From Xestospongia bergquistia (Eukaryota > Porifera > Demospongiae > Haplosclerida > Petrosiidae), in assembly GCA_963965975.1 (NCBI GenBank), contig OZ014412.1, positions 9,777,849 through 9,841,848 on the forward strand: DNA of 64,000 bases, read 5' to 3'. Position numbers and translations under genes: made by a program. Of the stretch, positions 1-57,699 are shown in pieces. Position 1 is the stretch's first letter. Every line of letters starts with the position of its first letter. Under the pieces are notes generated by a model. The model made no database searches. It was not told the DNA's origin and was given only the letters and a program-made list of their open reading frames with translations.

Positions 1-294
1 TGCTAAATGAATTTATGAAGACAATAAAAGTGCAATTTGATGCTCATATAAAACAAACAAAATTATTTTTTCCATATACTTTGCTATGAGTATTAAAAAT
101 GCACTTGATTACTATAATGGAACTCCTTTGATGAAAGCATTTTACACAACATGTGTTCTACAACATTTAAAACTACAATCACATATATAAAAATTTTGAT
201 AAATACATTGTCATTTATTGATATATTTAGGTTATGAACAACAATCAACCTATAGCTCAAGATTAATTATAGTTTTATCTTGTTTGTTACACAG
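1..294 (+). other. Intron end of gene A (no coding seen)
   Basis: AT-rich sequence with many stops in all + frames, ending in a pyrimidine-rich tract and a cacag acceptor at 290-294. The next exon starts in the frame shared with gene B, whose homologous exon begins at 24087 after the same kind of acceptor. In gene B this intron is about 4 kb, so the upstream exons of gene A are probably well left of the window. Confidence 0.7.
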
Positions 295-3200
295 GAAGTA
301 TTTCAAAGTGGATTGCAATTTGATAGTGATGTATTGGAATGCTTGTCTTGCTTTTGTTCACCTGATTTACATGAGGAACACATCCATTCTGTTAGAATTC
401 GTATAATTTTCTATATTTACTTGATTATGACGAAAGACATGAAACTTTCTTTAGACAATTTTCACTGTCTTCAAGAATATAGTTCGATAATTAACCCAAT
501 GACAAAATCATTTCTAAACATTTGGAATGCTTTTAAAAATTGGGAAGGTGTTGATAAAGAACCTACCATTGAGATGTTCATGAAAAGAATAGAAAATATT
601 CCTGAACTTCACCAGTTTGTCCATGATGTTTTGAACTGCTTCAAAGATTTTGTAAAAGTTACTGGACAACAAATTAGAAAAAGAAATGTCACTTATGATA
701 ATTTGGATGCATTAGATACTCACTATGAGATGTATGAAGCAATGTCACAGTGTGTTTCTAATGTCTTTAGTGAGGTTGATATTGTTTCGAAAGAAGAGTT
801 GTCAGATCTTAAGAGGTACTTTGATAACTGTGTTGATGAGATTTGGAAATTATTGGTTAGGTCACCTAAAAGTTATCCAGAATTAGCTATGTGAGTGTAT
901 AGCAATATAGTTACAATTATGATGACTATTTTTATTAAATAGGTCACATGTTCAATCTGTGTTGACAAAATATTATTTAGAACTTCCTCCAGTACTGGAT
1001 GCACATCTCAAGAAGTTGCTTATACCATGTACGGGTCATCATGAGTTTCCCTCAACTGATGGCTCACAAGTCTATACTGTGATTACTTATCATGCTAGTC
1101 CTACCAGTCAGTTGTCATCTCTTCAATCATTAAAAGTTAGCCTGACAACATTTCTAGAGCCATTGAAAGAGTCATTAGATACTCTTGTTTTCATTGACTT
1201 AAAAGGCTGTCAAATCTTAGAGAAATGCATTAACTACTTCCTAAAAGTATTGTCTACAACATATTTACATAGTTGCCAGTGCTCTCAGACCCCTTTTACA
1301 GACTCCAGCATGTTCACTCTTGATTGTCAAACAAGGATGATTCGACTAAATGATGCTGTTCAACAAGCTGAAACTGTTGTGATATCTCTAATAGAAGGCA
1401 ACACAAGAATGGACACTATTGCTGACATTTTCAACTCAAGTGATCTTATGAGCATTGATCTATCAGTAGAAAATGAGTCACTGCAGCAATATTACAAGTT
1501 AAAGATTGGACATGAGGTCTTTGTTGATATCTCTAATTATTTCACTGCATTTTTTGAACTCTATGCTGTATGTAAGCATATTTTTGCTTTGCAGAAAACA
1601 TGTGTGTTATTTGGTCTAAATGAGTGCCTAACTGACCCCAAAATGATCCATCTAAATCAAATTGCCAAGGAAATTGATGAAGCTCAGAAGGCAAGTGAAT
1701 TGGAGATACAAAACACTCATTTCATTACTTTACCTAATGCTTGTGATAAAGTATCAACTATCAAAGTTATATTTGGTATTGATGACCTCATTGACAATCC
1801 TTGTTTCAATTTATTCTCTCTTTTACAACATGGTTGTCCTCTATATTTCTTTGCTCAAGAGAGAGGTTATAATTTAAGTAATGGTATGGATACGTTTCGT
1901 CAAGAATATCAATTAGTAATTGGAGACCTTTTGTGTGAAGATCATGAAGAATTATTAGCAGTTCTACTTGGTGCTATGCAATTGACTTCTTGTTTCTTTA
2001 ACAAATCGTTTTCTTTTCTTGACCTTTGGACTAGTATAAACAAAATTAGTAATATATCAGCTGCAACAGTTCAACTCAAGACAGTTAATGAAGAAATAGA
2101 TGTTATAAGAACCTGTTTCCTTAGGACAATTGTGAGTAATTGATGGCTGGATAGAGTGATGGATAGATGGATTGATTTATGGATGGACAGACAGCTGATT
2201 TTAATTAAATTGACTACCTTATGTTAGTAATTTAACATAGTAAATGTATTTTTTCTAGGGAGGGCAACAATCAAATGAGACTATTCTACAATCTATTCTT
2301 TGTTCTGGATCTTATAACTTCTTTTGTGATGAATATCATGTTGAGGTCAAATTACAATTCAAGCCATCTTATTTAGGTAAATCAAGTTCTTAATTGCTGT
2401 ATCATTGCTTATGTGAATTATTGCTCTATTGAAGGAAATGTGCCATTTAAAGAGTGGTCTTGTAATAAAGTTGAAAATTTCATTCAAGAATTAACCTTGT
2501 TTAATACTGAAATAGAGTCTAGTGATGATGAAGTTGGTAATACTTTTAGAAGGCTCCAACAGGTATAATGTGTATGGCTTGCTTTTTTCTATCATCTTTG
2601 CCTATATAGTTTAATATAACTGCAATGGAATTACAAAGTTGTTATTCTCAATTGCAATGTCATGGTCATCCACTTTATTTGAAGGCATCATCAGAACAAT
2701 ATTTATTGTGTTCTCAGTATGAACAATTACAATTACTAAAAGACGAAGTATGATGAATTTTGTATAACATTGATTTAATATGTAATACCATATTATTATA
2801 GGTGACAGTGTGTAAGGAGCAATGGAGAGAGTTTGTAAATGTGTTAGTAGTCTCCAGAAAAACGTTTCCTTTGCTGTCTTTTGTAAGCACACAAAAGTTG
2901 AAAACAATTTATGCAAATTTGAAAAAAGAAATCCCAGACTTTGATGACCTTCTGAGAAATATCAGTTTTCTCTTTAATTTAGAATTGAATTCTTACTGTG
3001 TTTTACTCAATGTTAGCTTATTCTTTAAATTATTCATTAAATTAATTCTTCATATTTTATGTAGGAGGTCTCCAAATTTTACCAAGCTAATAGAAGTGAC
3101 ATTATTGAAGGACAAGATTTTCAGCATCCTGCCAAAATAATTGGGTATTTTTTGAGCAGACTTGTCAGTCAACCTGAAGTAAAGCCTTATCTTTCTGATG

Positions 3201-3648
3201 CTGTATTACCAAAACAGGGACATCGTAGAGAAGATCCAATTACATTTTCTTTAATTTCTGCTTTTGATTATTCTAATTTAGACTTGATTCGATTAATATA
3301 CTGGAGTTTTGATAAAAGCTTTCCACTGTTTTGTCAGCTGTTTAGATGTTCATCAAGTACATGTAAAGAAGATATTGAGTTATTTTTTGACAGAATTGAT
3401 CATTTTCCTCAGCCAAAATATCTTGTATTGGGAATCAATTTGATTAGAAATGACTTGCAACAAGTGAGTTAGTCTATATGTGATATTATGTCTAAATGTT
3501 TATTTAGGTCTTTTTGAAAAGAATATCTAAATTAAAAGCTGACATTCACAAAAATTTTCAATATGCTAAAACAATAGAGATCATAATTGTTGAATATTCT
3601 TCTTCAATGATTAGACTTGTACCATGGATTGATACTACTACTAAAGTT
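295..3648 (+). CDS. Gene A, exons before the AAA core
   Basis: Exons by splice signals and alignment with gene B: 295-890, 943-2131, 2259-2376, 2435-2562, 2610-2747, 2802-3011, 3065-3463, 3508-3648. They encode an alpha-helical region with no motif I can name; human RNF213 has a long helical dynein-linker-like arm in the same place, so this is probably the arm. The exon at 943-2131 is the longest. The exon starting at 3065 reads EVSKFYQANRS and then HPAKIIGYFLSRLV, parallel to ELSKYHQADGN and HPAKIIGHFLSKLV in gene B. Introns are mostly 40-130 bp. Confidence 0.75.
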
Positions 3649-6600
3649 GTGAGCTATCATTACACAATTTATAATCTGGACACAAACAACCAGAGTGGTG
3701 ATGTTGCTATGTAGCATCATCCATACATAATAGCACATTAATAATATCACAATGATTGTTTAACTACATGTTTGTTACCATTCTATAGTTTTTGATTTAA
3801 TTTCTTACATTATAAATGTACTCTTAAGCAAGAATATATAATAACTGTAATTATTACTGTCATCTTTTTTTAATGAGTTGATGAGTATTGAGTTAATGAG
3901 TATTGGTTAATGTGTTACACTTATACTATCCTGTACTGATATTAATTATTTAGGACAAAACTGAATTTTCGTCTGTAGAAGACATAAGTGCACACATAAG
4001 AAGGCAAAAAGTGTTTAAACAATTTCAAGTTGTATGTGGACCTCCAGGTGATTAAAGTTCCTGTACGCTTTGACTTCTACAATAAAGTAGAGACATTAAT
4101 TTATATTGCCAAATGCAAAATTGTATACTATCTCATTCAGCTTAATTACTGTTATTCTGTGAGAGTGCCTTAATTCCTTTTAAGTACTGAAAACAATTGT
4201 AGAATATATTGTGCTTTAAATAAAAAATATATATTTTTTATTTAGTAACATATGCAATGCTACTAATAGTATTTATAAATCACATCATATCAAAATTTGA
4301 TGTATAGAATGTATATTTAGACTTTTTCAAACAAATTTACATTAGTTTATTGAACATATATAGGTACTGGTAAGACACATTACATTAAAAAGTGTCTCAG
4401 CTGTAACTTTTATAAAAAATCAAAGACAATTTGTATCAATGAAACCTTTAACAAGACTGAAGTTGTTCAACAATTGAGGGAACATTGTTTGACTACCTGC
4501 AATCTGATACTTTTCTTGAAAATTTCTTTACTTTGGCCTCAAGTAAGAAATGTATTGTTAACATCATTTGTATAATAATATTTTTGTAGGATTTTGACAA
4601 AGAGGAATACAAGGAAGTATTTTATCAACTTGTGGATGATGTAAACTGGTTCTTCTTTGATTACTTTATACTTGGTTATGTTGATGTTCCTGAGACTACT
4701 AGTACTGAGTCAACGTCTTCTGGTTGTCTTTCTCTACCTTTGGTAGCTGGAGTTTCTATGTCTGTTTATGTAGAGGTATGTTTTAGAAGAGTATGTGAGT
4801 TTTGTAGGTGTGATAATCATAGTTTTTAAAATAAATATATTGAGTTGCATAATATAAAATAAACATTTGGTTAAAGTGTTGTTATACTTGAATAAAAACA
4901 TGTTTGGGTAGTGGCATACAATAGTTTAGTCAATAGATTATATTAGGATAAATAAATAGATAGTGACCAATTAATTTATTTAACATTAATACAGAAATTG
5001 TATCTTCATGTATTTACATTATACAGGCACCATACTGGAACATTAAAAATGGTCCTTCAACTGATGGAATGTGTCTTGATTTGTCATTTGAAAAGTTTAT
5101 TGATTTTTTTCCTGTCTTTGGTCTGCTTGGTGAGAAGGTTGTTCCTCCAGTAGAGTTTGATGTGGACAACTATCCTAGTGTACAACTTGTTTGTAAATAC
5201 CTTAATGCATCCAAGAAAAAAAAGTCAAACATTGTCCTTAAAAGTAAGTAATGCCAGTATTAAAAGCTGTACCTTTCACTTTTAAAACATGGACTTTTAA
5301 AACAAGATTTTTCTTCAAATGATTGTCAGAAGATTCTTCAAGAAGCATTTCCACATGAAATTAGAGGCAATAAACTCATGGAAGTGTTGTACTTAAAGTG
5401 AGTGACACATTACTTTACTGACATGCAAAAGCACCAGTAGGTGGCCTAGTATATGTGGAATTTTGGGGTATCTATTAATTTGTTTACAATTATAGCATTT
5501 TAGTACACAAAGAACTATAATAATTTACAAGATTGTTTACAATATAAAAACTATTACCATATGATAACCCTAGAAATGGTAATTTCCACTTTGTCAAATA
5601 AAATATAACAATTATTAATTTTAGATACATGGAAAGGCGATGTTTACTTCTTGAGAAATGTCCACATCTTCAAAACACAGCTAAAATGAGGTCCACACTA
5701 TTTAATATAATGAAAGAGGAAATTGGAGATTTCTGTAAACAATCATTTTCATTGTCCTCTGATGATCATAGACAGGTATGATCAGAACTATTAATTAAAT
5801 GTCAATTGTACTGTTGAGGCTATAATTTGAACTATGGAATACAATGTATATGACTTAAAGTATTGTTTGTCACAGTTTGTGTTCCAAAATTGCATTTAAT
5901 TGTAAAAGTTTAATTTTATAGTGGACTGTTACATTTTTTCTATTTGTTTATAATATTTATCCCCAAGAGTTGTATTGTAATACCATTTTCTGTCTTTTCT
6001 TTAGCTCATATATTATTTCATTCATGCTGGTAGTACCTTCAAATTTCTCTGTACCCATCCAGAACAACTATCACCAGTTGATCATTCAAAACTCCAAGCA
6101 GTTGGAATTGAGTTACCAGCAAATGAGTAAGTTAGAATATAGTAACTATTTTTGAATAGATTTATGACTAAGTTTATTAAAGATTAGTTGAATTGTATTT
6201 TGATATTTTAGAGAAGTAATCACCACTCAAGTACTTCATGATTATATGTCTGCTGCTTTTAATGTTGACAAGACTAATGAAATTAAAGTGATGAAAGAGA
6301 AGAAAGTAATTGTCACAAGAGATTTTGTTCGTAAAATGTTACATATTCATGAGAGGAAGGAGTGTTGTATGCCAGTGGTCATTGAAGGAGAGACTGGTGT
6401 TGGAAAGACTTTTCTTCTTGATGTACTGTCCACTCTTTGGAATGAATCATGGCATCTGCAGTTAAATAAACAAAGAGAAGTTATAAAAGTAAGTGATCTG
6501 TTATGGAATTTCTTAAATATGTTAACTGCTATATTAGAAATTCTTTGTGGAAAAAGTTTCTAAACTAAGAGCTATTGGTTCAAGAACTGATGCATTACTT

Positions 6601-9600
6601 AGAGCAACATTGTCCACGCTACTGACTGATGAGAAAGTACCTCTCGATAATTTACAAGAAATTTTGAGACTAAAAGATCCTGACATACCTTCTATTCAAT
6701 TATATGAAGTTTTGAAGAGCAAGATTGAAACTATTGCATTTGATCCAATATTAGCAAGCATAGTACTACCTAATGACTCCACCTGTGAAAGTGAATTTAT
6801 CAGTTTGCTTGAGCAGGTGCAAAGTGCTTGTGATTTTGAGGTAATGTTTTTAATTGTTTGTGAGGCCATATCTTTTAACATTGGTTTGTGTATAGATAAT
6901 AGCTGAAGTGTTGAATGGTATTCTCTATGGATGTCTAAAAGATATTTTTTACAAACTAACCATTACTGCTAGTAAGCTATATAAGTATACATTAACTGTC
7001 ATTAAACTTTGAAAGTTTATATTAATGTAAATGATTCAAAATATTAACTGACATTACCAATGTATTTAGCTGTATGTTTATGTTTAAATCCTATAGATAC
7101 AAAATCAGATAACATCAAACAGTTCTTCTTTAATGTTAATAAACATGCTGACTCTTTATTAATGAGTTATTATCGCTACTTGGATTATAAGAAAAGTATA
7201 ACTCCAACTAAAGAGTTTCAAAAGCCTGTTGTCATTGTAAATGAATATACTATAATATTTTTGATATCTGGTTTATGTTGTTAGCAATTTTATCAACACA
7301 ATGTGTTTTCACTGCATTTATAGGTGTTTTTAGATGACATACATACTTGCTCCTGTCCTGGGTATCTAAAAGAAATTATCACTGATGGCACTATTGATCA
7401 AAAGGTAAGGTCTTAAATAGAACAACTCTTGCATAGATTCTATTGTGTTTTCAAAAGTTTTAATGTTTTTGAAATTGTAATTCATTATCCTTATTTGATT
7501 ACTCTCCTTCTTTCCTTAAATTGTTAATTGTTACATTCTAACCTTATGTATGTATATTGTAGGGGCAAAAAATTTCTTCAAACATCTTTATTGTTGCTGC
7601 TTGTAATCCTCATCGTGGTAACAGTTTAGCCTCTGTAGAAAAGAAATCTGATGAGAACTGGTTTAGAAGCTCTTATTACGTCCAGTCCCTACCTCCAACT
7701 CTTGAGCTTATTATGTGGGACTATGGGCAATTACAAGTGGGCCATGAAAAAGAGTATATAAGAGAAAAGTTCATTCTCACTTATAATGAGTTGCCATTTC
7801 TTGAATACACTTTTCTTACTGAGAGGATAGCTAAAGCTCAACAATTTATTAGATCTTGTGTCTACAAAACATTAGTCAATAATAAGGTAACAGAAGATAA
7901 GGCAAAGCTATATTCCCAAAGCACTGTTAGTCAACGAGATATTCAACGTGTCTTTACATTTTATGATTGGCTTCAGAAGTGGTTTAAACGACCTACCAAA
8001 TATGACAGAAATGACTTTAGTGTCAGTTGTCGTGCTGTGTTTGTTGCCTTGGCTTTAGTTTACTATTTCAGACTAAATGAACAGTCTCGACAGCAGTTCA
8101 AAAATGAAATGAGTAAAATTTGCCTAGTTGATGAGCAAAGCATTCCAGTCACATTTGAACAGGCTGTCAGTGATGAATTTGACTGGGTAACTGATCATAT
8201 CAATCTTCCCATTGATATTGCCCCAACTGATGCTCTCAAAGAAAACATTTATGCTATAATTGTTTGTACAATGACTCGCATTCCTCTAATTATTGTTGGC
8301 CCACCTGGTTCTTCAAAAATGCTTTCTTTTAAGATTGTGACATCAAATTTTCAATGTCCAATGTCTAAACAAAAGTATGATTCTGACATTCTAATGAGTT
8401 TGGATCCTCATTTTTATCATTGTTCTCATAAATGTACATCAAAAGAAATTGAAACTTTTTTTTACAAAGCTGAAATTCATCAAAACATTTTTGATAATAA
8501 TGAAATAAGAAATTATTGTTGTGTGTTTTTTAATATGGATAGTCTGTTAAAAGATTACAGTTTATGGGACATTCTTCATTACTACTTGGACAATAATAAG
8601 GTTAGATAAAACTAGATAGTTATGTGATACGATGTAGTCTTTATAGATACAATATAATAGTAAAAATTATTTATAACTACCACAGTGGCTAATTTTAAGA
8701 TGTAATGATCATTATATGACTGTTAATGCAGTAGGTTTTGTACATACAATCATTTTGAGAGCACTTTTACTATTTTTTAAAAATATTTTAGGTATCTTTT
8801 GTTGGAGTAGCTAATGCCATTTTAGATACTGTGACATCAAATCAAGCAGTTGTCGTTTATAGAAGTGAAATGTCTCAAAATGACTTGATGCAAATAGCAG
8901 ATTGTTGCCTAACAAATGCACAACCTTCAAACTTGGCAAAAGAGGTTGTTATTGATGGCTTTGTTAAAGCTTATGAATGTATAATAAACCAATATTCAAT
9001 TAACACACTCTTTGGGGTGATGGACTTTATACATTTCTTGACCTATATTGACAAAGTAGCATCTCAAACAAATATTATATCATCAGAAATAGTTGTTCAA
9101 TCTTTGGAGATAAACTTTAATGGATCAAATTACTTTAATGAAATCTTGACAGCATTTCTAGATGTGGTAAGTCCTTATAAACATACAATCATTTGACCGA
9201 GTTATTATATATTTGTATGGTTCATGTTTTAGATTGGCATAAGCCCAAGTCAAGTTCAAAGACGTTCTTTAATAGATATGGTTCAAACAACTTTCTTTCA
9301 TTTCCAATTTTCAGAAGAGACTGGTCGAAACAAATTACTAATTGATGTTAGTGAAGATCACTCAATGATTCGACTTTTATCTTTATTTGGAATATTAATG
9401 AGAAATGAAATAAGAGTATTAGCCTGTTCAAAGCTTCCTGGAGATGATGATGATGGAAAAGTGAGCTGATAAAAAATTAGCTAATGTATATTCTTTTCCT
9501 TTTTGTAAAACAGGTAAATACAATTGATGCCATTAAACAATGTGCTATACAAGGCCAACCAGTTATTATTCTTCAAGCTGAAGAAATCCTAGATTGCCTT

Positions 9601-12491
9601 TATGACCTTTTGCTACAACATTTTACATGTATTCATAGTCCCTCTGGTGACCATCATTATGTTTGTGTAATTAACGAGGGTAGTATTCACCCAACAAGAA
9701 TATCTTCTACCTTTAAATGTGGTGTGGTAGTCAGCAGTTCAGAAATATCTAAGATTCCTTTGTCTATCTTAAAAGGACTTGAAAAACACACTCTAAGTCA
9801 CAAAGATTTTTTTGATGCAATATTGTGTTTTTGTCCTGGGAGTGTACAGAAGTTACTACAATATGCAAAATACAAAGTAAGTCCATTGACTTTTCTTGGA
9901 ATTAATCAAAAAGTTAGTAAAGATTAAAAATGTAAATTTTACAGGCTGCCATATATAAATTATACTTGCTTTGTGATTATTAGTTCATTTAACCACATTC
10001 CAATCAATGTATGTAGTGAAACAAGAGAGCTCCAATATTACACTATATCTATTTTCTATTGTTATCATTTTTCTTCTAGATTGCAACATTTGTTAATACT
10101 TGTGGAGAGTCTAGCTTTTATGGGTTCACTAAACAAACAATCGACTCCTTGATGCTTTCTTTAGCTCCATTAAAAGATTTCAATGTAAATGAAAGTATTG
10201 CAACTCATACATCTCATGACTTTCAATGTGAATGCCTTTCCAATAAGGGTATATTTATTAATTGCCTCCTGAAGCAATGTCATACAACATTTGGAATATA
10301 CATACAGCAGGTAAATGTGTCGATTCTTAGTTGAATATAATAATATTATGTATTTTTCATTTACAAGGGTACTTGTCTTGAGTTTTCTGACATGGTCAGG
10401 TATGTCTTTTCTTTTCTCCCTGGTGATGGTGTTGTAGAAGATCAAGTTGATTTAGCTTCTCACTCTGCTATAATTGACTTTGCAGCACAATCTATCGAGT
10501 CAATGAAAGAAACAGTTATTGACTTTTCTTCTCTGAAATTCTCCACATCTAATCTACCATTCTTGATAATAAGAAAATTGGTTATGACTCACTTATATAA
10601 ACAACTCATTCAAATTATGTCTCCTGAAGCATTGGTACTTCATAGAGAGCATATGGAGAACTATTACATTTGCTGCTACCTTCAGCATCAACATCATTTT
10701 TCATTGGGACAGCTAATTCAAGATCAACACAAATCAATATGTCAAGAGTAAGTTTAATAATTAATGTTTGTAATTTAGTTTTCTCTAAAAGTATTGGATT
10801 GTTATGAATGCGTGTTTGTTAAAGCTGGGATTGTTGTTTTATTGATTTTTTTATAACAAATATCTTTCTTACACAATTCTAGGATGAATACTTTAAAGTT
10901 TAAAATTAAGAAATATCTCTTGTATACACAAACGTCATATGCCATTCTTACATCTATTCCTCCTCACTATTGTTCATTTAATAAATTAACTGAAATTGAG
11001 GTTGCTGGACTAGAAGATCTCTTTCTCATCAACACTGACTTGCTTTATATATATACTATTACTAGTACTAGCAAGCAACAAAATATCAATCAAGTATTAA
11101 CTCAATTCTTTCAATCAGAGCAGTATGAAGTACTAGTATTAGTTGCTAACATGAATGAACTTCACAAAGACTGTATCAGTCATGTCCGATTGTTAATAGA
11201 GGAAATGGAAGCTTTATTTCAATCAAAGATTAAATCAAACAAACTTGCTTACCTTCTTCTTCATTTTCCAGAAAACATGCTTTATAGTTACTGCTATCCA
11301 TGTCTGTTTGAAAAAGGTTGGCAACATATTTATTTGGCAGAAGTTAGATCTGATCATCATAGTGACATAGAAGAATGTTTATCTTCATATTTACTGCAAC
11401 AAAAGGCCAATTTGCAAACACATTCAGCATTGATTGAAAAGCTTAAAAAAGTAATACCAGTATTGAATTCACCTTTACTGACCCTACAAAGCAAGGACAA
11501 AGAAATTCAACAATTAAAAATTGAACTTAAATTGGTCACACAGCAACTTCAAACATCTACCCAAAAAATCAATGAACAACAAATTGAAGCAAAGTTGTTA
11601 TTTGAACAAAATGAAGAGTTGAAAAAGAAGATGTTACAAGAACAGACAAAGCTAGAGCACCAGCTTAATGAAATGTCACAAAGATGTGAGGAAGCTGAAG
11701 AGGAACTTCAACAACAACAATGCCATTGGATAGTAAAGAGAGATGAAATTGATGTCACCCCACAGCTTCTTGGTAATGGAGCATATGGAAAGGTTAGAAT
11801 TGCTTACTTTCGAGGCATTCAAGTAGCTGCTAAATGTCTTCATGAAATAATTTTATCTCCTTATATTTTATCAACTTTTGCACGTGAAATGGAAATAGCA
11901 GCAAGGGTTCGGCATCCTAATCTCCTACAGTTCATAGGAGCCATTCAAGAAGGTAACCCTATCATCCTCTCGGAGTTAATGCCAACTAGTGTGCGTAAAG
12001 AACTTGAAAAATCACCTCTTACACGTCCTCAAATTGTCAGAATTTCCCAAGATGTCTGTGATGCTCTTAACTACCTTCATCTTTGGAAACCCCACCCTAT
12101 ACTTCATCGTGATGTTAGTAGTGCTAATGTTCTCCTTGAACCATCAGGTACTGGTCAATGGAAGGCTAAACTTGGTGATTATGGCTCAGCAAATTTTCTT
12201 CATCAAATTTCTCCAAATAGTTGTGGTCCAGGTTCTCCAGCATATTCTGCACCTGAGGCTGCTTATCCTGATCGCCACTCTCCAGCAATGGACGTCTATA
12301 GTTTTGGGGTGTTGCTAATGGAGATGATTGTCTGTCAACCTCCTCCTCCTACAACAGATGGGAAAAAACGTCTAGCTAGGTCACTTAAATGGTTGAAGCC
12401 TCTTGTTGAAAAGTGCATCATTCAAGAATGGAAACAACGTCCAACAATTGGTCAAGTACTTGCTGATTTACATAAAGCTAGACCTAGTTAA
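295..12491 (+). CDS. Gene A: RNF213/mysterin-like AAA+ protein fused to a TKL-like kinase (5' end outside window)
   Basis: Multi-exon gene on the + strand. In-window product order: RNF213-like mid region, AAA module with GPPGTGKT, AAA module with GETGVGKT, AAA module with GPPGSSKM, post-AAA region, coiled coil, protein kinase, stop at 12489-12491. Exon positions match gene B exon for exon up to the last exon, and splice sites and phases fit, so the gene reads open throughout the window. RNF213 proteins are giant ATP-driven ubiquitin ligases of the cytosol; here the ligase end is replaced by a kinase. ATPase motifs in the AAA3- and AAA4-like modules are altered compared with gene B, so ATP turnover may be weak or lost. 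Seen: motifs, frames, homology to B and C. Known: family role. Inferred: function. Gene models may instead call the kinase a separate gene, but it shares one open exon with the RNF213 part. Confidence 0.85.
3649..3953 (+). other. Gene A intron, 305 bp
   Basis: Intron between the linker-like region and the first P-loop exon. AT-rich, with a small internal near-repeat (ttgatgagtattgagttaatgagtattggtta). A closely similar sequence lies at the same place in locus C (57800-58085). No other feature seen. Confidence 0.7.
3954..6896 (+). CDS. Gene A, first and second P-loop AAA modules
   Basis: Exons: 3954-4047, 4364-4542, 4590-4775, 5027-5243, about 5265-5398, 5625-5775, 6005-6126, 6212-6488, 6538-6840, then 6896 onward. 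The first Walker A, GPPGTGKT, is split by the intron 4048-4363 after its first Gly-Pro-Pro (4038-4047 and 4364-4377), exactly as in gene B. The second Walker A, GETGVGKT, is at 6387-6410 in a VVIEGE context typical of the RNF213 AAA3 module. The acceptor near 5264 is weak and chosen by homology with gene B. Helical sequence follows each P-loop. The first module most likely corresponds to AAA2 of RNF213. Confidence 0.8.
4048..4363 (+). other. Gene A intron splitting the P-loop, 316 bp
   Basis: AT-rich intron lying inside the codons of the first Walker A motif. The same intron interrupts the same Gly codon in gene B (27667-27899) and locus C (from about 58182 to 58495), showing it predates the gene duplications. 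Nothing else recognised. Confidence 0.75.
6896..8600 (+). CDS. Gene A, Walker B of AAA3 and AAA4 P-loop region
   Basis: Exons 6896-6971, 7097-7236, 7324-7404 and the large exon 7563-8600. The exon at 7324 begins VFLDDIHTC: the Walker B of the AAA3 module, with Asp where gene B has the catalytic Glu (VFLDEINTC). The large exon starts with SSNIFIVAACNPHRGNSL, then SLPPTLELI, both matching the RNF213 family. The AAA4 Walker A at 8298-8321 reads GPPGSSKM, with Met in place of the Mg-coordinating Thr of gene B. The aligned Walker B (8515-8570) has lost the Asp-Glu pair (Phe-Asn in my alignment with VVLMDEAGLAE). These are drifted sites in an otherwise open frame. Confidence 0.8.
8792..11408 (+). 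CDS. Gene A, post-AAA4 RNF213-like region
   Basis: Exons 8792-9166, 9233-9460, 9514-9876, 10080-10310, 10368-10746 and the start of the last exon (10883 onward). Contains the conserved-looking stretches SCxGSVQKLLQYAK and GESSFYGFTKQTIDSL (gene B: GESSFYGFVNHTIDSL), QCYLQHQHHFSLGQLIQ-like sequence and FEKGWQHIY. In RNF213 this zone closes the AAA ring and leads to the E3 module. Similarity to gene B stops inside the last exon just after YLLQQKA (about 11403-11408; gene B CLLKQKG at about 37372), with no intron at the break. Confidence 0.8.
11409..11736 (+). CDS. Gene A, coiled-coil linker
   Basis: About 110 residues rich in Glu, Gln, Lys and Leu with a heptad feel (KEIQQLKIELKLVTQQL, then EQNEELKKKMLQEQTKLE, then CEEAEEELQQQQ). 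It joins the RNF213-like part to the kinase and has no counterpart in gene B. A coiled coil between a scaffold and a kinase could bring kinases together for trans-activation; that role is inference. Confidence 0.75.
11737..12491 (+). CDS. Gene A, TKL-like protein kinase domain
   Basis: About 250 residues with every key catalytic motif: glycine loop GNGAYGKV (11772-11795), ATP-anchoring Lys in VAAKCLHE (11832-11834), HRDVSSANVLL catalytic loop (Asp 12111-12113, Asn 12126-12128), DYG in place of DFG (12177-12185), APE (12249-12257), DVYSFGVLLMEM, and a C-lobe Arg in KQRPTIGQVL. The RHPNLLQFIGA and DVYSFGVLL phrases and the absence of the tyrosine-kinase HRDLAARN loop fit the tyrosine-kinase-like Ser/Thr group. 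All residues needed for activity are present, so this is probably a working kinase. It ends five residues after the C-lobe. Confidence 0.9.
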
Positions 12492-22148: not shown

Positions 22149-25100
22149 TTGTGCATTAAAATGTGTTAACAGAAATAGCTCAATCAAAATCTTTCAATTC
22201 TTTGCAGTATTTCTTTTTATGATAATCCTTTTCTTAGCATTATGGGTACAATAGTCAAATATTGGATTTGTTCATTTCTCTTTGCTTTTGCCTTTGATTT
22301 TGGACATGAAATTCACAGAGGTAACATGCTCAACTATGAAGTATGTCCTTTTGGTTTCATTTTGAGTGCTTCAGAAACAAAATTAGTGATTTCAGCTGGT
22401 TACTACAAAAAGCTACTCTTAGGTTTCATTTGACTGCCTCAGAAACAAGCAATAGATGTGAATAGGGAATACTGTTTCATTGTGGCTAAACTGAAGCTTA
22501 GTTTTCTATTTTTTGCATAATTTCTTTAATTTCTTTTTAATTTTAAATTTAATTTCTTGACTATTTCCTATTTTGATGTTCAGCCTAGAGGAAGATCCAG
22601 AATCATTATTGTATGACTGATAAGCCAGTAATTATTTGCCTAGCCACAATGCATTGAATTTCCTTGTTGTCCAGAACTTAGGATGGAATAAGTTATTGTT
22701 TATTAATAAAATACTTTCATCACAATATGTAAAAACGTTTTTTTGATCTGGTTAAACGTGACACCTCATTGCCTTTCAGCATGCTACAATTACTCATTTA
22801 TAATGGAGCAGCAGTTGCAGGTTTACTATGAATCTTATGATAAGTTTTATTAAATCTATCATATACACATGGTATAACATTTCCCTGTGGATGTACTGTC
22901 TTTGTATCTCATGTCCCACAAAATTGGAAAATTATAAATGTTTAGATGAGTTATTGATTGCAGTACAAAGAGAGACACTTTTATGATGCAATATTTTCAA
23001 AATACACTAAGAATATCAATGAAATTAAAACACTCTAAAGTTTTCCTTGTAATGCATACAATATAGTGACTAGAATTAAGTTATAATCAATTAATTCAGT
23101 AGAAATGTGCTCATAGGCTAAATGACACTTATGTTCATGCTCTAGATTATACTGTTATAAGAATAATGTATGTATGCTACTAAATGCATCAGTTGTATGA
23201 AAACAACGATAATTTAGCTTTTTAATATAAGAGGTAAAGCTTTCTACTAGATTTATCAAAAGAACTACCAAAAATGTGAAATACAGAAGTTATTAGATGT
23301 ATGTGTACAATGTACTATCTTTTGTGCTAAGGCCATATCATATGGTATCCACAAAGATTTCCTGGGTGACTGATAATTGTTCACAGAAACATTTATGAAC
23401 TTTCCAAAGATGACTGAAATCAAGCAATGTTATTAGTCAATTAGTGCAATCTTATTTATTACTATTATAAGGAACAAACCAAAATTTTATTAAGTACTGT
23501 AAAACTACTAATGTTGGCGGCTAATGTTGTTTTAAGCATTTTTGCTTCATTACCATATTAGCGGCTATTAAATTTAATGTTTCTTATTGTACTTTCGGTG
23601 ACCAAAAATCCAAGCTCCTTAGTGAATTTGTCAGCAGCTGTCTTATTTCCAACTTCACACGAGTACTCAGCAATTTTAACACGTGTTTCATCATAATATT
23701 GATACCTGCCCCTTTTCCTTTGCACTTGCTTCGCCTTTTCAACCTCTGTTTGCTGCTGCCGTTGCTCCATCCTCATTCTCTTCAAGTTATGACGAAGATG
23801 ACCCACGAAGCCATTTTATAAGAGACATGACTTTCGCTGTTCAGTTTGCACGCTTCTCCTTCTTTTTCAATGCATGTGACTTGCTCTTAACTTTAGCAAA
23901 TATTAAATTTAGCAATTTTTTTCAAATCGTTAATATGGCTAAAATTAGTCGCACGCTAATATTAGTAGTTTTACAGTATAGTTCATCATAGACATGTGAT
24001 TATATACACCCAACTACGTGTGTATTGCAGCATACTATTTGTACACTGTTAATTAATTGTGAATTTTTTAAAATCTTGTTACACAGGAGGTCCTTCAAGG
24101 TGATTTACAATTTGATCATAATGTACTAGACTGCTTATCTCACATTTGTTCGGCTGATTTACAAGAGGAGCACATCTGTTCTATTAAAATTCGTGCAGTT
24201 TTTAGTATTTTTTTAACTATGACTAAAGACATGAACCTTACTTTAGACAATTTTCACTGTCTTCAAGATTATCACTCAATAATTAAGCCAATGGCAAAGT
24301 CATTTGAAAACATTTGGGATGCTTTTAAAAATTGGGATGGTGTCAATGAAGAACCTACCATTGAGATGTTCAGAAAAAGAGTAGAGAATATACCAGAATT
24401 TCATCAGTTTATCGATAGTGTTTTGAATTGTTTCAGAAATTTTGTTAAAGTTACTGGACAACTAATCAGAAAGAAAGATGTCACCTATGACAATTTAAAT
24501 GCATTACACACTCATTATGAGGTGTATGAAGCAATGTCACAGTGTGTTTCAAAAGTCTTTTTTGGTGAGGTCGACATTATTTTGAAAGAAGAGTTGTCAG
24601 ATCTTAAGAAGTGCTATGATAAATGTGTAAATGAGATCAAGAAATTATTGGTTAGGTCACCTAAAAATTACCCAGAATTAGCCTTGTAAGTACATTAAGT
24701 TATATAATTGTATTTATATTATAATTATTAATGTATTAGGTCACATGTTCAATCTGTGTTAACAAAGTATCGTATAGAACTTCCTCCAGTGATATATGCT
24801 CATCTCAAGGAGTTGCTAATACCATCTACTGGTCACCACAAAATTCTCTCAACTAATGGCTCACAAGTTCACACTGTAATTACTTATCGTGCTAAGGAAG
24901 ACAGTCGGTTGTCATCTCTTGAATCGTTAAAAGATAGTCTGACAAAATTCCTAGAGCCATTGAAAGAGTCATTAGATACTCTTGTCTTGGTTGACTTAAA
25001 AAGATGTCAAATCTTTGAGAAATGCATTAACTACTTTCTTGAAAAGTCTTCAAAAAATCTACATAGTCGTCAGCGTTCTCAGACTCTCTTTACAGACTCC

Positions 25101-28100
25101 AATCTGCTCACACTTGATTGTCAAAACCAGATGATTCAACTAAACAATGCTGTTCAAGAAGCTGAAACTGTTGTGATCTCTCTAATAGAAGACAATGCAC
25201 AAATGAATATTATTACTGACATTTTCAACTCAAGTGATCTTAAGAGCATTGATCTATCAGTAGAAAATGAGTCACTACAGCAATATTATAAGTTAAAGAT
25301 TGGAGATGAGGTCTTTGTTGATATCTCTATTAGTTTCGCTGGATTTTTAGAACTCTTTGATGTATATAAACATATTTTTGCTTTGCAGAAAACATGTGAA
25401 TTATTTGGTCTTTGTGAATGCCTAAATGACCCTAAAATGATACAGCTAACTGAAATTGCAAAGGAAACTAAGAAGGCGAGTGAATCCAAGCTGCAAAATG
25501 CACATTCCATTACTTCATCTAACGCCTGTGATAAGGTATCAAATATCAAACGTATTTTTGGTATTGATGACCTCATTGATAATCCTTGTTTCAATTTATT
25601 CTCACTTTTGCAACATGGCTGTCCTCTATTTGGATTTGCTCAAGAGAGAGGTTATAACTTGATTAATGGTATGGACAGTTTTCGCCAAGAATATCAATTA
25701 GTAACTGCAGACCTTTTACACGAAGATCATCATGAAGAGTTATTAGCAGTTCTACTTGGTGCTATGCAATTGACTTCTTGTTTCTTTGATAAATCCTGTT
25801 CCCTTGTTGACCTTTGGACTAGTATAAACAAGATTAGCAATGTATCAACAGCAACAGCTCAACTCAAGACAGTTAATGAAGAAATAGGTCTTATCAGAAT
25901 CTGGTTCAATAGAATATCTGTAAGTTGACTAAAATGTAAATCAATATGTCAATAGATATACATTAAAAGAATGAAATGATGTATTGATGGGTTGTATGTT
26001 TAATAACAGCTAGACAGAGAATAAAGACAGGTAGATAGTTTATAAAACATGTCATTATATATTACAGAATATTGTATATCACTATCTTCTTACGTTTTAG
26101 GAAGGGTCTCAAGAAATGAATGAGAATACTCTACAATGTATTCTTCATTCTGGATCTTATCACTTCTTTTGTGATGAATATCATGTTGTGGTTAAATTAC
26201 AATTTAATCCATTTTGTGCAAATCAGAGAGGTAATTGAATAGTTGTACCATTAAGTAAATGAAACAGGCTGTTTTTACTTAAATAGACCAGCCATTTAAA
26301 GAATGGTCTAGTAATAAAATAGAAGATTTCATTCGTCAATTAACCTTGATTAATTCTGAAATAGAAAGTAGTGATGATCAAGTTGGTACTAATTTCAGAT
26401 GGTTTCAACAGGTAATTTTGACCATACAGTATGGTGTACTCTTATATTATACTTACATTATACCTATATAGTTTAATATAGCTGCAATGGAATTACGAGA
26501 TTGCTATTCTCAATTGCAACATAATGGTCATCCACTTTATTTGAAGGCGTCATCAGAACAATATTTATTGTATCCTCAGTATGAAAGATTACAATTACTA
26601 AAAGACAAAGTATGATGAGGTTTATATTACATTTATTTAATATGTAATATCATATTATAGGTGACAGTGTGTAAGAAGCAACTGACAAAGTTTAATGATG
26701 TCTTTTTAAAATCCAGAAATGATATTCCCTTGTTGTCATTTGTAAGCACTCAGAAACTAAAAGCAATTTATAGAAACTTAAAAAAGGAATTTCCAGACTT
26801 TGATGACCTTTTAAGAGATGTTGGTTTTTTCTTTAATTTAGATATAAACTCTTGTCATGTTATACATAAAGTTAGTCACAAAGAGTCTACTATTAATTTT
26901 ATTAAAAGTACTAATTATTTATTTTAATAGGAACTCTCTAAATATCATCAAGCTGATGGAAATACCATCGAGGAAAGTGAACATCCTGCCAAAATAATTG
27001 GGCATTTTTTGAGCAAGCTTGTCAATCAACCTGAATTAAAGCTTTTTCTTTCTGCTGCTGTTCTACCACAAAAGGGAGCTCATAGAAAAGATCCAATTAC
27101 AATCTCTTTAATTTCAGCCTTTGATTATTCTAATTTAGACTTGATTCGATTAATATACTGGAGTTTTGATGAAAGGTTTCCATTGTTTTGTCAGCTGTTT
27201 AGATGTTCATCAAATACATCTAAAGAAGACGTTGAGTTATTTTTTGACAGAATTGATCATTTTCCTCAACCAAAATATCTTGTACTGGGAATCAATTTAA
27301 TTAGAAATGACTTGCAACAAGTGAGTTAGTCTTTATGTGATATTATGTATCATTGCATTCCAATACTTTGAATAGGTTTTTTTAAAACGATTCTCTAAAT
27401 TGAAATCAAATGTTCACAGAAATTCTGATCACTTCAGAACAATAGACATCTTGATCGTTGAGTACTCTCCTTCACTGTTTCGACACATACCATGGATTGC
27501 TACCACAACCAAAGTGGTAAATTTTACTTTGACTAGTTAATTGTTTTTATTCATTTAATTTAGAACAAAGATAAACTACCTGATTTTACTGATATATATG
27601 ATCATTTAAGGGAACAAAAAATTGGTAAAGAATTTAAGCGATTTCAAGTTGTGTATGGACTTCCAGGTAAAGAAAATAAAGAAAAAATTTAATTTGTATA
27701 ATAGCAAAAAGTTGATACATACAATAATTGAAGCTGTTATTATAACATCCCCTAAGAAGACCAGGGTTTAAGTTAATAACTACTTTATATCAAGTATTGT
27801 TTTGATTATTCTATTAATAAAAATAGACAATTTTAAAAAAATTGTTCAGACTTTTCATGAGAGAGAGGCTTTATTAATTTGTTGTGCTTGTTTTTTTAGG
27901 TAGTGGTAAGACACATTACATAAAGAATTGTCTTGACAGTGACTTTCATAAAACAACAAGGACAATTAGTATCAATGAAACCTTCAACAAGACTGAAGTT
28001 GTTCAACAACTAATGCAACTTAGTTTGACCACCTATGATTTGGCACTCTTTTTGAATATCAATTTAGTGTTGCCTCAAGTACTTGATTTGTTATTTTAAA

Positions 28101-31100
28101 ATGTATTTATGATTTATGTTTATAGAAATGGGACAGAAAAGAATACAAGAAAGTATTTTATCAACTTGTGGATGATGTAAACTGGTTCTTCTTTGATTAC
28201 TTCATACTTCGCTATGTTGATGTTCCTGAGAATACTAGTGCTGACTCAACTTCTCCTGGTTGTCTTTCACTATGTTTGGTAGCTAAAGCGGCTACATCTG
28301 TTTATATTGAAGTTAGTTGTTACATAATACATGTGAAGGGTGTGTTGAAATTACAATGGACCAAACAGTTCATTTATTTGCATATGGTATGTCTGTTTTG
28401 ATAAATAAGTAAATAATTCCCTCTGGTGTTGCTCAAGTGTACAATTAATTGCACTTACTAATTTTGCAATTTTAATTTAGTCAAAGTTTGTGTGTATTAA
28501 TTTTAGCAACCATGCCTAATTCAACCACAAAGTCTAACATTTGTGTGTACTAATTTTAGCAATCATTACAATAGATGCTAAAATTACTTCTTACAATTAA
28601 AAGGAGGCTTAAGGTAAGTGGCAATGACATCTCAACCATTAGTTTTGCTATAGTGGTTGTACATAATTAAAGGTACTGATCAAGCTTCTTTGTTTCATGC
28701 AACCTACTTTTGATTAACAGTTACAGTATTTGTCAACTTAAAATCTTTACAAAAGCAAACTAAAGTGTCAAATAATTATATACTACTTACGATAGAGTAA
28801 TTCATTATATTTAGCTAGTATAGTAGTTACTGAGTAATAACGCTGTATGACACATAATGATGTATACAAGTTATATCATAGAGTACAAATTACCTCAAGA
28901 AGCACCCAACCTAAGTTATAACAAAGTGATACTGCAAGGAATTGAAAGATTTTGATCAGTTTTGAGCGAGATATTCATTGTTTTCTCCCAATACTTTTCA
29001 AGGCACAATCCATGCCATCCCTACATAGGCACTGCTATTGCATGCCTCATATTGAATGTGATTGGATGTGGTCAAAACACCTACTTCCTGTTGTACCTAG
29101 TCTTTCTATTGATGAGGAAGTAACATAATAATAGGTGAAAATCAGTTTTTAGACAAATGTACTTTATTACCAAAACAATCTTATGATTTGTTTGCACACA
29201 AAGTGTGCTAAACTGATATTGATTTCATGAAGTTATAAATGTTGTTTGTAGGCTCCATACTGGAAAATTGTCAATGATTGTTATGTATCAGATGAAAAAC
29301 GTCTGAATCAGTCGTATGAAAAATTTAAAGATTTCTTTCCTATCTTTGCTCTACTTGGTGAGAAGTTTACTCCTCCAATATGGTTTGATGTAAAAAGTAG
29401 TCCTGGTGTGCAACTAGTTTGTAAATATATTGTTGCAAACAGAGAAAAAAGACTGGACCACATTATTAAAAGTATGTTCACTCTATAATATTGCATAAAA
29501 TATAATGTAATTAATTTCTGTTTTGACATACTTGTTAAATATTTTATTTACAGGTTATGGCCTAAAAACATGATGGCTATATATAGTATATACAATGTGC
29601 AACAATGTAAACTAGGCATGGAGTATAAAGCTGTACATGTAGTGGCACATTAATGGCATAAGTTAGTTGGGCTATAACCTGTTTTGGCTTAATCCAAGAG
29701 ACACTCAAAGTGATATCACCTCTACCATGCCTTATTTTAACTCTTTTAGAGGCCAGAGATGCTCCAATTGAAATTAATAAAATTATGAAAGATATTCCTC
29801 CCAGTGAATGTCAGAGAATACTCTATGAAACTTTTCCATTGGTTGAAGTTAGAGGGAAAAAAATTATGGAGGTTTTGTATTTGAGGTGGGTTCCTATATA
29901 ATGTTTCTTGTCATTTTCTACTTGCATAATGATATTTTGTGCGTCAGAGTATTTTATGTACAGATATAGTAATGATATTATTTTTAACTTTATTTGAAAT
30001 GTAATTAATTGACTGAAAGAACAAATGAATTCTATCACATTCTTTATATTTAGATACATGGAAAGACGATGCATATTTCTAGAGAATTGTCCTCATCTTC
30101 GTTATAATGAAGGCTACAGAGAAACTATAAAAAACAGTGAAGGGAGAGTAATTGGAGAGAGAAACACAGCAAAAATGAGATCTACATTGTTTGCTATTAT
30201 GCAAGAAGAGGTTGGAAATTTTTGTAAGCAGTCTATGTCATGGTCGTCTGATGTTCATAGACAGGTTTGTTTATAGCTTAAAGCTAATTGAATTGTCTGT
30301 ATAAAAATATTATTATAAACAAACTGCTCTAAATTGTCCTAACTATGTGAAGACATTAATTATCGCATATTTATCACATTATCACAAATTTATATGTAAA
30401 GCAAACTAAGTGTCACGTTTATAGTGTCATTATAATTTTTAAAATGCCTCCATAAAATTAATTACTGTGTATTTTAAAATCTTTTTTCATTTAGCTGATA
30501 TATGACTTCAATAGTAGTGGCAGTACATTCAGATTTCTCTGTACTCATCCAGAACGTCTGCCACCAGATGAATTTTCAAAACTTCAAGCAATTGGAATTG
30601 ATATAGGAACACTCAAGTATGTTTAACTCTACTTGAAGAAATACCATTTTTAATTTTAATATTTTAGAGAGCGACTCAGCACTCAATTACTTCATACTTA
30701 TCTTTCTGCTGCTCTTAATGTTGACAAGGATCGTGAAACCAACGAAATTAAATTAATAAAAGATAAAAAATTTGTTCTCACAAGAGATTTTGTTCAAAAA
30801 ATGTTAAATATTCATGAAAGGAAGGAATGTGGTACTCCAGTGGTCATTGAAGGAGAGACTGGTGTTGGAAAGTCTTTTCTTCTTGAGTTACTTGCCTGTC
30901 TTTGGAATGAATCTTGGAACCAACAGTTGAAAAAACAGAGGCAAAATATTAAAGTAAAGAATTTAATTATTTTATATCTTCATCACAGTATAATTGCTGC
31001 TATAGGAATTTCTTCTTGAAAAAATATCCCTGTTGAAGGCTCGTGATTCAACAACTGATAAATTGCTGAGTACAACACTTTCTAAGCTGCAAACAGAAAA

Positions 31101-34100
31101 CGAAAAAGTGCCTCTTAGTGATATACAACAACTTTTGAGACTACATGATCCTAACAAACCTTCTAAACAATCATTTGAAATATTTAGGAATAAAATTGAA
31201 GTTGACTCTTATGATCCAGTGTTATCAAGTTTAGTATTACCTAGCGATTCCTCTTACAAGGGAGAATTTAGTGATTTATTGCAGCAAATGCAACGAGATT
31301 GTGATGTGGAGGTAATGTCTATTTTATATAAAGATTTCTATTCATACTGCTTATTAGATAATGGCTGAAGTGTTAAATGGTATTCTCTATGGATGTCTAA
31401 AGAGCACATTCTATAAACTAAGCATTCATACTGGTAAGTTTTATCCCAACAGTTGGGTTAGATAATTTTCTAAAACTAGTGGACTAAAAAGGGTATTAGT
31501 TTGTCATTTATATGATTTGTGTGGACTATGTGTTATACTCTAGCCATGAAGCCTGAAGAAGTCAGAATGTTCTTTCGTGATGTTAGTAAACATGCTGACT
31601 CTTTATTAACAAGATATAATGACTACTTAAAGCACAGGAAAAGAGCAACCTTTAAAGAATATCAGAAACCTGTAGTCACTGTAAGTATTTATTGTCTCTT
31701 AAAGTTTATGTGTTTTCAATTTTCTGTATAAATACACAAATTTTGTTAATGCATTCAGGTGTTTTTGGATGAAATAAATACTTGCTCATGTCCTGGATAT
31801 TTGAAAGAAATCATAACTGATGGCTCTGCTGGTATAAGAGTAAGTTCTTAAATAATACTTAAGGTTATGGTGAAGAAATGCTCCTATCTATATTTATATC
31901 TAAGGCTAGCTCGTTTATGAAGTTTTTTCAATCTCTGCTTTAGAATAATTAGACAATAGATAAGCTAGCTTTCCAAGTATTTGGTTTGTTTGAAGTTTCT
32001 GAATAACTATTTTGTGTTTGCCATTTTCTGACCTGAATTATTAGTATGTCTGGAAAAAGACATATTAATAATTGCTATATAGAATGCCTTTACACTAGTA
32101 CCAATACCATCATAGCGAAGAATTAATCTGCAGTAGCTTATTAGCATATTTTCTTAGGTTCCCTGTTTTTAATTCTTCCTGGTAACCCTTAACCCTGGAT
32201 GGGCAAGGGTTGTGGGACTTGTTTTATGTATGTGTCTGTTCTAAAAGTACAAGCTTTTTTAATGTACACACCTATTTGATAAATAATTATTGTAATTAAT
32301 TAATAATTAATTATTGCAAGTATAATTGTCATATGATTACTTTACTTGCACATTTTCATTGACTTGTGTAAGGAATTTTTATTGTTTGCACACTTTCATT
32401 TCATGAAGCGCTATTATATGTTGTGACTGAAAGAAACTTTGGTTTAACATTTAAGATATAAATTATTTTCTTTTCCAACTGTAAGTGAGACAAATGACTT
32501 AGCTTAACAAGCAAATACTTACAGAACTGCTGAAAAAATATACTGCATCCATTGCAATTAAAGTGTTGTCTTTTGCCACAGCTGTGGTATATATCTCCTG
32601 TATAACTTGGATATTTTCACAGATATTATGATACTTAGTTACTTTGAAACAACCTCTATTGCATATTATTTTTAACATGTTTTCATGTGCTACATAAAAT
32701 CTTGAAACAATAAGTATAAATAAGTAAGAATGAAATGATATCACAATGCAGCAAAAGATCCATGTTAAAAGGTAATTGTGATCCCTGGCTCCATCACTAC
32801 ATATTTATTTACAAAGTGGTTCATGTTTCACTAATTTAACTATGGCTCTCTTAATTGTCTGTTATAGGGAGAAAAAATCTCTTCAAACATATTCATTGTT
32901 GCTGCTTGTAATCCTCATCGTGGTAACAGTTTAGCATCTGTAGATAAGACATCTGATGAGAACTGGTTTAGAAGCTCATATTATGTCCAGTCCCTTCCTC
33001 CAACTCTTGAGCTTATTATATGGGACTATGGACAATTACGAGAGAGCCATGAAAAAGAGTATATAAGAGAAAAGTTCATTCTCACTTATAATGATTTGTC
33101 ATGTCTTGAATACACTTTTCTTACTGAGCGGATAGCTAAAGCTCAAAAATTTATTAGAAATTGTGCCTACAAAACATTGATCAATAATAAGGTAGCAGAT
33201 GATAAAGCAAAGTTATGTTCCCAAAGCACTGTTAGTCAACGAGATATTCAACGTGTCTTCACATTTTATGATTGGCTTCGGGAGTGGTTTAAACGACCTA
33301 CCAAATACAAAGTAGATGACTTTAGTGTCAGTTGTCGTGCTGTGTTTGTTGCCCTAGCTTTAGTTTACTATTTTCGATTAAATGAGAAGTATCGAAAGAA
33401 ATTTAAGGAAGAGATGATGGAACGTCGCCCTGTAGGTGAACAAGGAATTCCAGTCACATTTGAAGATGCACTTAATGATGAGTTTAAATGGGTATCTGAA
33501 CATGTTGATCTTCCTGTTGGTATTGCTCCAACTGATGCCCTCAAAGAGAACATTTATGCTATAATTGTATGTACAATGACTCGCATTCCTCTAATTATTG
33601 TTGGCCCACCTGGTTCTTCAAAAACTCTTTCTTTTAAGATTGTGACATCAAATTTCCAAGGACAAGAGTCCAAGTTAGAGTCTGACATTGATATTCTGTT
33701 GAGGTTGGATCCTCATTTTTATCAGTGTTCTCGTAACTCTACATCAACAGAAATTGAAACTGTTTTTCAGAGAGCTGAAAATCGTCAGAAAACATTTGAT
33801 GAAGGTAGTATTAAAAGTCAATCTGTTGTTCTTATGGATGAAGCTGGATTAGCAGAAGATTCTCATGAATCATTAAAAGTTCTTCATTATTACTTAGACA
33901 ATCCAAAAGTCAGTGAAGTATTGTTTAATTTCTTTACTAAAATGTGTGACATTTGGTAAAATTACTATAATTATTGTATAAGGGTACAGTGTAATTAACA
34001 GCTACCATCTAAATTTGTGTTAATTAGTAATTTTTTCTTGGGAAACATTATCAATAAGTACATTTATAACAATTTATAATAATACTGGTACTTATATACT

Positions 34101-48319: not shown

Positions 48320-48808
48320 TATGTTAATTACAATAATTACATTTTTGTACATGACTGGCTACCAATTAAACATGCTTGATTATAATGCTGAGTTTATATA
48401 TTTTTTGGTTAAGTATTTTATGTAGTCATAATTTGTTTTGATAAATTATTATTACTTATTATTATATTAATTAGAAGTTTGGTATGGGAAGGTATCTATA
48501 GTGATGACACATTGGTCAGGCCACAAGTGATCAGGTATACATTGATAGCATGATCCTGCAGTAGCTCAAACTTGTACTGATAATACTATGATATCAAGCT
48601 AGTTTCAATTATACTAAAGTTGATCAATGTGTATATGGTGACTCTAGTTACTGTCAACTTTCTCAAGACACAATAAAAAATTCTCCGGTACCATATTATT
48701 GTTAAATTGAACACTAGCTCATGCTAACAATTGTGTGTGAGTTACATAATCCACAGTAAAAATACTGAAGAAAATTTCAAGAAATGTATTATTAGTACTA
48801 GTTTTAGT
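48320..48808 (+). other. 3' flank of gene B
   Basis: Non-coding, matches 53579-54060 downstream of the second SAM tail. Contains several cacaataaaa-type AT-rich stretches (aataaa near 48673) that could serve as polyadenylation signals. No other feature. Confidence 0.5.
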
Positions 48809-48860
48809 ACAAGTCCTGTACATGTTATTCACCAAATCCCAAAACATGCTAAAATTGGTA
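48809..48860 (+). pseudogene. Relic of an RNF213-like first exon
   Basis: acaagtcctgt..(48809) followed by aatcccaaaacatgctaaa and attggt (48835-48859) matches the end of exon 1 of locus C (caagtcctgttgacatccc.., ending 54484) and gene B (ending 15383), coding for IPKHAKI and including the exon end. The donor GTAAG has become GTATA and the ATG end is missing. It marks where a neighbouring gene once began just after this SAM tail. Confidence 0.7.
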
Positions 48861-48910
48861 TATAGGTATTAATTTACTGTGATGTCTAGAACTTTTTCCA
48901 GTTGTTGTAG

Positions 48911-49052
48911 GAGAAGGAGGTTGACAGAGAATCGTTTCTATCAGTAAGACTCGAAAACTATAAACATCGAGAACGAGAATCACACAAGACAGACCCAACC
49001 CCTATGATTGAAGATACTACGGGACTTTCCCGTCCGTCCACAGGGTTGATGT
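48911..49052 (+). other. Possible orphan exon, GC-richer open segment
   Basis: After an acceptor-like ttgttgtag (48902-48910) a 45-codon stretch is open and ends in TAG: starts EKEVDRESFLSVRLENYKHR, ends TTGLSRPSTGLM. Base composition is less AT-rich than the surroundings. It has no partner in gene B or locus C. Either a terminal exon of a lost neighbour or chance. Confidence 0.3.
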
Positions 49053-55620: not shown

Positions 55621-55653
<33 letters not shown>

Positions 55654-57427: not shown

Positions 57428-57699
57428 GGGAGACTTTGAATTAGTTTTTGGTGGTCTTCAAACAAAACCGACTATCTTTGAGCTCACAGCTAAATCATTC
57501 CTGGCAGTGTGCAATGAATATTGTAGAGTTAATTCTCTTGCAAACTTTACTCACACTAAATTGGTCTCTGGTGGGTTACATTTCATTAGAAATTTAATTG
57601 TTTTTTTAAAGCATCAATTTTCATGAAACTATTTAGTTTATGTTCAAAAACAAAAAGACTGAGACACTTTGGCAAAAACAATTTATTGATGTAAGTGTA

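Follow-up and report, generated by a model that had tools for sequence, protein, structure and literature searches.

A 64,000-nucleotide stretch of the genome of the sponge Xestospongia bergquistia (the window; contig OZ014412.1 of assembly GCA_963965975.1, positions 9,777,849 to 9,841,848 of the forward strand) encodes three RNF213-like genes in tandem, all on the + strand, here called A, B and C. Gene A ends in a single open exon in which homology to its RNF213-like sister stops at a sharp join and a protein kinase domain follows in frame, with a likely coiled coil between the two. We consider gene A, judged by its sequence, to be probably a real fusion gene, the product of which would be a scaffold-kinase. 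The features on which this reading is built are as follows.

286..10747, + strand: RNF213-like exons of gene A (tblastn blocks against B, phmmer, gene model)
10748..10882, + strand: last intron of gene A, with GT-AG ends
10883..12491, + strand: last exon of gene A, comprising RNF213-like segment, coil, kinase and stop (gene model, held-out coding score)
11405..11408, + strand: join point, where A/B similarity has stopped (at 11404)
11409..11723, + strand: predicted coiled coil of 105 residues (AlphaFold helix and heptad periodicity, moderate support only)
11763..12458, + strand: protein kinase domain, TKL-like by best matches (Pfam PF00069, 2.1e-33)
24076..44260, + strand: sister gene B, the comparator, RNF213-like, with intact AAA3 and AAA4 Walker motifs and a non-kinase C-terminal half

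Gene A runs from exons at about 286 to 12491 and possibly starts before the window. Its relationship to RNF213, claimed by the initial annotation, is borne out by phmmer against solved RNF213 structures (3.1e-30), the main matched stretch running from Walker B of AAA3 through AAA4 with weak extra stretches on both sides. For gene B the same comparison gives 4.7e-45 and the match extends into AAA5. The part of A upstream of the AAA region was assigned by its match to gene B only. A tblastn search with the forward open frames of B of at least 30 codons in 23991-38200 as query returned 51 rows in A, of which 24 were dropped (one stop-containing upstream row and otherwise rows that overlap in other frames); the 27 coding-frame blocks kept span 286-11429, and 0 of the 27 contain a stop. 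The gene-finder model of A, made with home-made splice-site weights and acceptor scale, has 25 exons, several inner ones being weak or shorter than the tblastn blocks, so the inner exon boundaries are provisional. The limits of gene B are those set for the gene finder; the inner exons of its 3' half are uncertain and its start is perhaps earlier.

The intron before the last exon lies at the same place as an intron of B (36704-36843), which likewise has GT and AG ends, and the last exon is contained in an open frame at 10857-12491 that continues into the kinase with neither intron nor stop, as had been proposed. DNA similarity between A and B (10599-11404 versus 36555-37368) has its last base at 11404, confirmed by a second alignment, in agreement with the earlier placing of the break at about 11405. 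The protein alignments change equally sharply, from a score of 527 against a shuffle mean of 35 before the join (z 71.5, 200 shuffles) to 38 against 35 after it (z 0.5, 200 shuffles). The open frame of B passes the equivalent point and runs on to 38194; therefore the join, 779 residues after the AAA4 P-loop of A, lies in mid-exon relative to B, again as first suggested. The frame is preserved across it, from the RNF213-like segment into the coil and kinase, so that the join is in frame as well as mid-exon relative to B. In a held-out coding score (last exon excluded from training), the exon frame is positive in 15 of 17 sub-windows, each of 99 bases; the two negative values are -1.2 at 11082, before the join, and -0.7 at 11874, within the kinase. 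Both remaining frames score below zero save for values of 0.2 and 0.4. A candidate similarity of the coil to B sequence past the join was rejected (z 0.6).

A coiled coil in the new tail is likely, not firm. From 11409 on, a stretch of 105 residues has abundant Q, L, E and K and two prolines in its first part. AlphaFold places a single 76-residue helix there, the sole fairly confident part of a poor model (block-mean predicted local distance difference test score, pLDDT, of 65-78 over residues 211-270). The heptad periodicity of this helix was matched by 72, 37 and 4 of 2000 shuffles at 28, 42 and 56 residues, and that of the whole 105-residue stretch by 92, 10 and 12 of 2000. The coil of the initial annotation thus has a predicted helix and periodicity in its favor, at a moderate level of support.

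The kinase domain carries a GNGAYGKV Gly loop, AAK (with the VAIK Lys), the alpha-C Glu, the HRD Asp, DYG in place of DFG (with the DFG Asp kept), APE and the alpha-F Asp, and kinase activity is plausible from these motifs. Among solved structures the domain matches best to CTR1 (4e-23), a lectin-type receptor kinase (8e-20) and IRAK4 (1.4e-18), followed closely by kinases of other groups (CSK, SLK, MEK1 and Snf1, 1.5e-17 to 3e-16), so that "TKL-like" is an assignment by rank. TKL is the group of CTR1 and IRAK4, and sponges probably possess a large family of coiled-coil TKL kinases with the motif HRDVSSAN. Unlike CTR1 and IRAK4, the kinase of gene A has HRDVSSAN without the usual Lys and is joined to an RNF213-type ring. 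No relatives of gene A were found in viral contigs; a scan of genome contigs for relatives returned one bacterial kinase (28% identity), which was uninformative and was not used.

The ring that precedes the join appears to be partly degenerate. AAA names follow the numbering of PMC7311170, our assignment of units to it being presumptive, and the relevant motifs of gene A are the following.

6387..6407, + strand: AAA3 Walker A, GETGVGK, intact (aligned to GETGCGKT of vertebrate RNF213)
7327..7350, + strand: AAA3 Walker B, FLDDIHTC (FLDEINTC in B), with Asp for Glu (A/B alignment)
8298..8321, + strand: AAA4 Walker A, GPPGSSKM (GPPGSSKT in B), with Met for Thr after the Lys
8517..8549, + strand: AAA4 Walker B position, acidic pair lost (alignments to B and vertebrate RNF213)

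RNF213 has six AAA units in a single chain, followed by a hinge. These units are recognised by sequence from AAA3 to AAA4 in A and as far as AAA5 in B, later parts being undetectable. The AAA3 Walker A stretch taken alone matches vertebrate RNF213 with an i-Evalue of 0.27. Gene B retains the Walker motifs of both AAA3 and AAA4, including the Asp-Glu pair of AAA4 (VVLMDEAGL), at which A has Asn-Met in the alignment to B and Met-Asp in a gapped alignment to vertebrate RNF213. Judged by these motifs, A would not possess the catalytically competent AAA3 and AAA4 that PMC7311170 describes for RNF213. In vertebrate RNF213, according to PMC12075652, the ubiquitin ligase (E3) is activated by ATP binding at AAA3 and AAA4, not by hydrolysis; mutation of the Walker A motif of either unit lowers E3 activity, and that of AAA4 is required for full activity. 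The "ATP-driven ring" of the initial annotation is unsupported, because AAA4 is degenerate in A and Walker B of AAA3 has Asp for Glu. The ring may be a one-site switch at best, at AAA3, and otherwise a passive platform.

Past 11404 gene A lacks any B-like sequence, and a search of 12400-24070 for the C-terminal half of B gave nothing convincing (best E values 0.095 by tblastn and, over 30 bases, 0.019 by blastn). The proposal that a kinase stands in place of the E3 end should be phrased more cautiously, because B too gave no RING. The C-terminal half of B (37369-44260) gave no Pfam match above cut-off, RING included, in the pieces scanned. A search with four zinc-finger patterns in three forward frames of 37301-46000 returned only two loose H-C-C matches, one at 39253 that is out of the exon's frame and one at 45475 that is beyond gene B; an intron-split finger would escape these patterns, which are rough for the RZ finger. 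The E3 module of RNF213 (RING, RZ finger and C-terminal domain) is accordingly missing from A and, within the same limit for intron-split fingers, undetected in B. The tail of B may still be an E3, by analogy, because ubiquitin transfer by mouse RNF213 is RING-independent (PMC7311170). If gene B indeed lacks the customary E3 fingers, an RNF213 relative of that kind would be interesting in its own right.

The RNF213 part of gene A is open and shows signs of constraint in comparison with the third gene.

54594..64000, + strand: gene C, closely related to A, broken and truncated where the window ends

With B as outgroup, changes since the A/C split were counted over six exon blocks. The A branch has 12 synonymous and 12 nonsynonymous changes and the C branch 19 and 34; under six mutation settings omega for A is 0.27-0.39 (binomial P 0.002-0.02). 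Gene C reads as a pseudogene with frame-breaking deletions, having within the six blocks deletions of 1, 37 and 1 bases and one stop in the frame of A. A deletion of about 480 bases takes out the AAA4 region of C beyond the P-loop. C corresponds to the 15450-18577 region and then to A from about 3558 on (pieces 88-96% identical) and, because the match jumps in this way, lacks a counterpart of A 256-3550. In C the window boundary falls at the position matching A 10762, some 120 bases short of where its last exon, and some 640 short of where its join, would lie. The open frames at 14416-18577, between A and B, recur in part at 54594-57699, upstream of C, and are perhaps the N-terminal part of gene B.

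Several observations weigh against a working scaffold-kinase. Omega for the broken gene C is 0.48-0.71 under the six mutation settings, and the difference between A and C is not significant (Fisher P 0.32). Some of the constraint on A may be older than the fusion, since the window cuts C off ahead of the exon in which a kinase would be seen. Profile searches matched the segment before the join to no solved structure, and RNF213 homology beyond AAA5 is undetectable in solved structures, so the join is placed by length near the AAA6/hinge edge of mouse RNF213. The AlphaFold model that contains the helix has a mean pLDDT of 39.7 and a second model is likewise poor (35.5). In the catalytic loop, HRDVSSAN, the usual Lys of HRDxK (aligned to the CTR1 Lys) is Ser, although every motif that the initial annotation named for its "complete kinase" is present. 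The ring may switch nothing at all, because the AAA4 Walker A is needed for full E3 activity in RNF213 and AAA4 is degenerate in A. Two acceptor-like sites inside the last exon, at 11272 and 11766, score as high as the model acceptors on the home-made scale and could support a kinase transcript distinct from the RNF213 part.

The acceptor-like sites, together with the decayed AAA4 motifs of A and the broken state of its sister C, would fit two overlapping units, a truncated RNF213 copy in decay and an independent kinase gene starting within the exon (at Met 11631 or at an acceptor such as 11766). We regard this as unlikely, since no stop interrupts any of the 27 RNF213-like blocks of A, this part of the gene shows constraint, the frame is kept over the join, and the first Met after the join comes 74 residues in, at 11631. 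An assembly artefact, by which unrelated exons were joined at 11405, is harder still to credit and we consider it very improbable. A single copy of the join is visible, that of C falling beyond the window end, but the window contains no Ns, the coding signal carries on through the join, and strand and frame both match, which by our estimate would happen by chance about 1 time in 6. The Ser in HRDxK and the DYG would also suit a fusion that is transcribed with a pseudokinase, its product acting as a scaffold or decoy without phosphotransfer; with AAA4 degenerate as well, loss of catalysis would then run through the whole of copy A. The Gly loop, VAIK Lys, alpha-C Glu, HRD Asp, DFG Asp, APE and alpha-F Asp are nevertheless all kept, and we hold the pseudokinase to be rather doubtful.

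We favor a real fusion gene, and local DNA rearrangement over retro-insertion as its origin, without regarding the latter preference as proven. The initial annotation had allowed DNA breakage or retro-insertion, and what tips the balance is a kinase relic that sits nearby on the opposite strand.

48781..48968, - strand: decayed tail of a related kinase, outside gene A (76 bp at 80%)

When extended, the alignment between this relic and A 12291-12500 reaches a score of 100, whereas the highest of 100 shuffles reached 54. A processed kinase transcript inserted in the exon would account for the intronless state of the new part (about 1.08 kb), its only sign of a retrocopy, and old retrocopies can lose their A-run and flanking signs. 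No A-run of at least 7 follows the stop in 12489-14400, however, no convincing B-like sequence resumes past the insert, and the relic lies in the same locus; we judge retro-insertion to be decidedly unlikely. A 0.66-kb repeat (13090-13751 and 49082-49736, 70.7% identity) occurs near both the kinase and the kinase relic. Its two copies differ in order and orientation relative to the kinases, and a mobile repeat as carrier of the kinase was rejected. The 3' part of the repeat may resemble a decayed death-domain exon, by a motif that Pfam does not support.

For the fusion gene we propose that a DNA rearrangement would have removed from a tandem RNF213-like copy the C-terminal half that follows the AAA region, and that the truncated copy would have gained the segment with coil and TKL-like kinase in frame. 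We infer that the product is one protein with the RNF213 part as a targeting and sensing scaffold. The ring would be a nucleotide-binding platform, not a motor, with at most one working hydrolysis site (AAA3). The RNF213 part would gather several copies on a target, where the coils would pair and draw the kinases together, and the clustered kinases could phosphorylate each other and relay a signal in place of ubiquitin transfer. An immune role, like coil pairing and kinase activity, is something we infer; by analogy with vertebrate RNF213 it would be the likeliest role. More speculatively, and with less than even confidence, the RNF213 ring may be a modular sensor with a swappable output, such that in gene A a near-dead ATPase platform would gather and switch a coiled-coil TKL kinase in a ring-to-phosphorylation immune pathway free of ubiquitin.

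Elsewhere in the window, a SAM-domain gene is duplicated in tandem (44636-48794 and 49729-54060, pieces 79-91% identical). Scans of the window for tRNA and Rfam families gave no matches.

Vertebrate RNF213 (mysterin) is homologous to gene A and to gene B, the latter with its AAA3 and AAA4 motifs intact. In contrast to the vertebrate protein, A carries a coil and kinase after 11404, a degenerate AAA4 and Asp for Glu in the AAA3 Walker B. PMC8486878 reports that RNF213 oligomerises on lipid droplets after interferon. The closest precedent for gene A is the somatic RNF213/ALO17-ALK fusion found in human tumours (anaplastic large cell lymphoma), in which RNF213 is likewise joined to a kinase (PMC12192600, PMC10542332). 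The initial annotation knew of no RNF213 homologue with a kinase in place of its E3 end; this somatic precedent is published, and the interpretation of that annotation as a whole is partly supported. The tumour fusion differs in being somatic and in using the receptor tyrosine kinase ALK, whereas gene A is genomic and has a TKL-like kinase with a coil of its own. In ALK fusions generally, constitutive kinase activity may come via N-terminal oligomerization domains (PMC10542332). An RNF213-kinase gene belonging to an animal genome does not appear among the titles and abstract openings listed from the open-access literature, which does not by itself establish novelty.

RNF213 acts broadly against microbes and is also the main susceptibility factor for Moyamoya disease, and the way in which its ring communicates with its output module is unsettled. 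Gene A hints that the RNF213 ring can be coupled to a different signalling output. It would be a germline counterpart of the RNF213/ALO17-ALK tumour fusions, and a natural gene that keeps the ring and changes the output would make it possible to tell the sensing part from the acting part.

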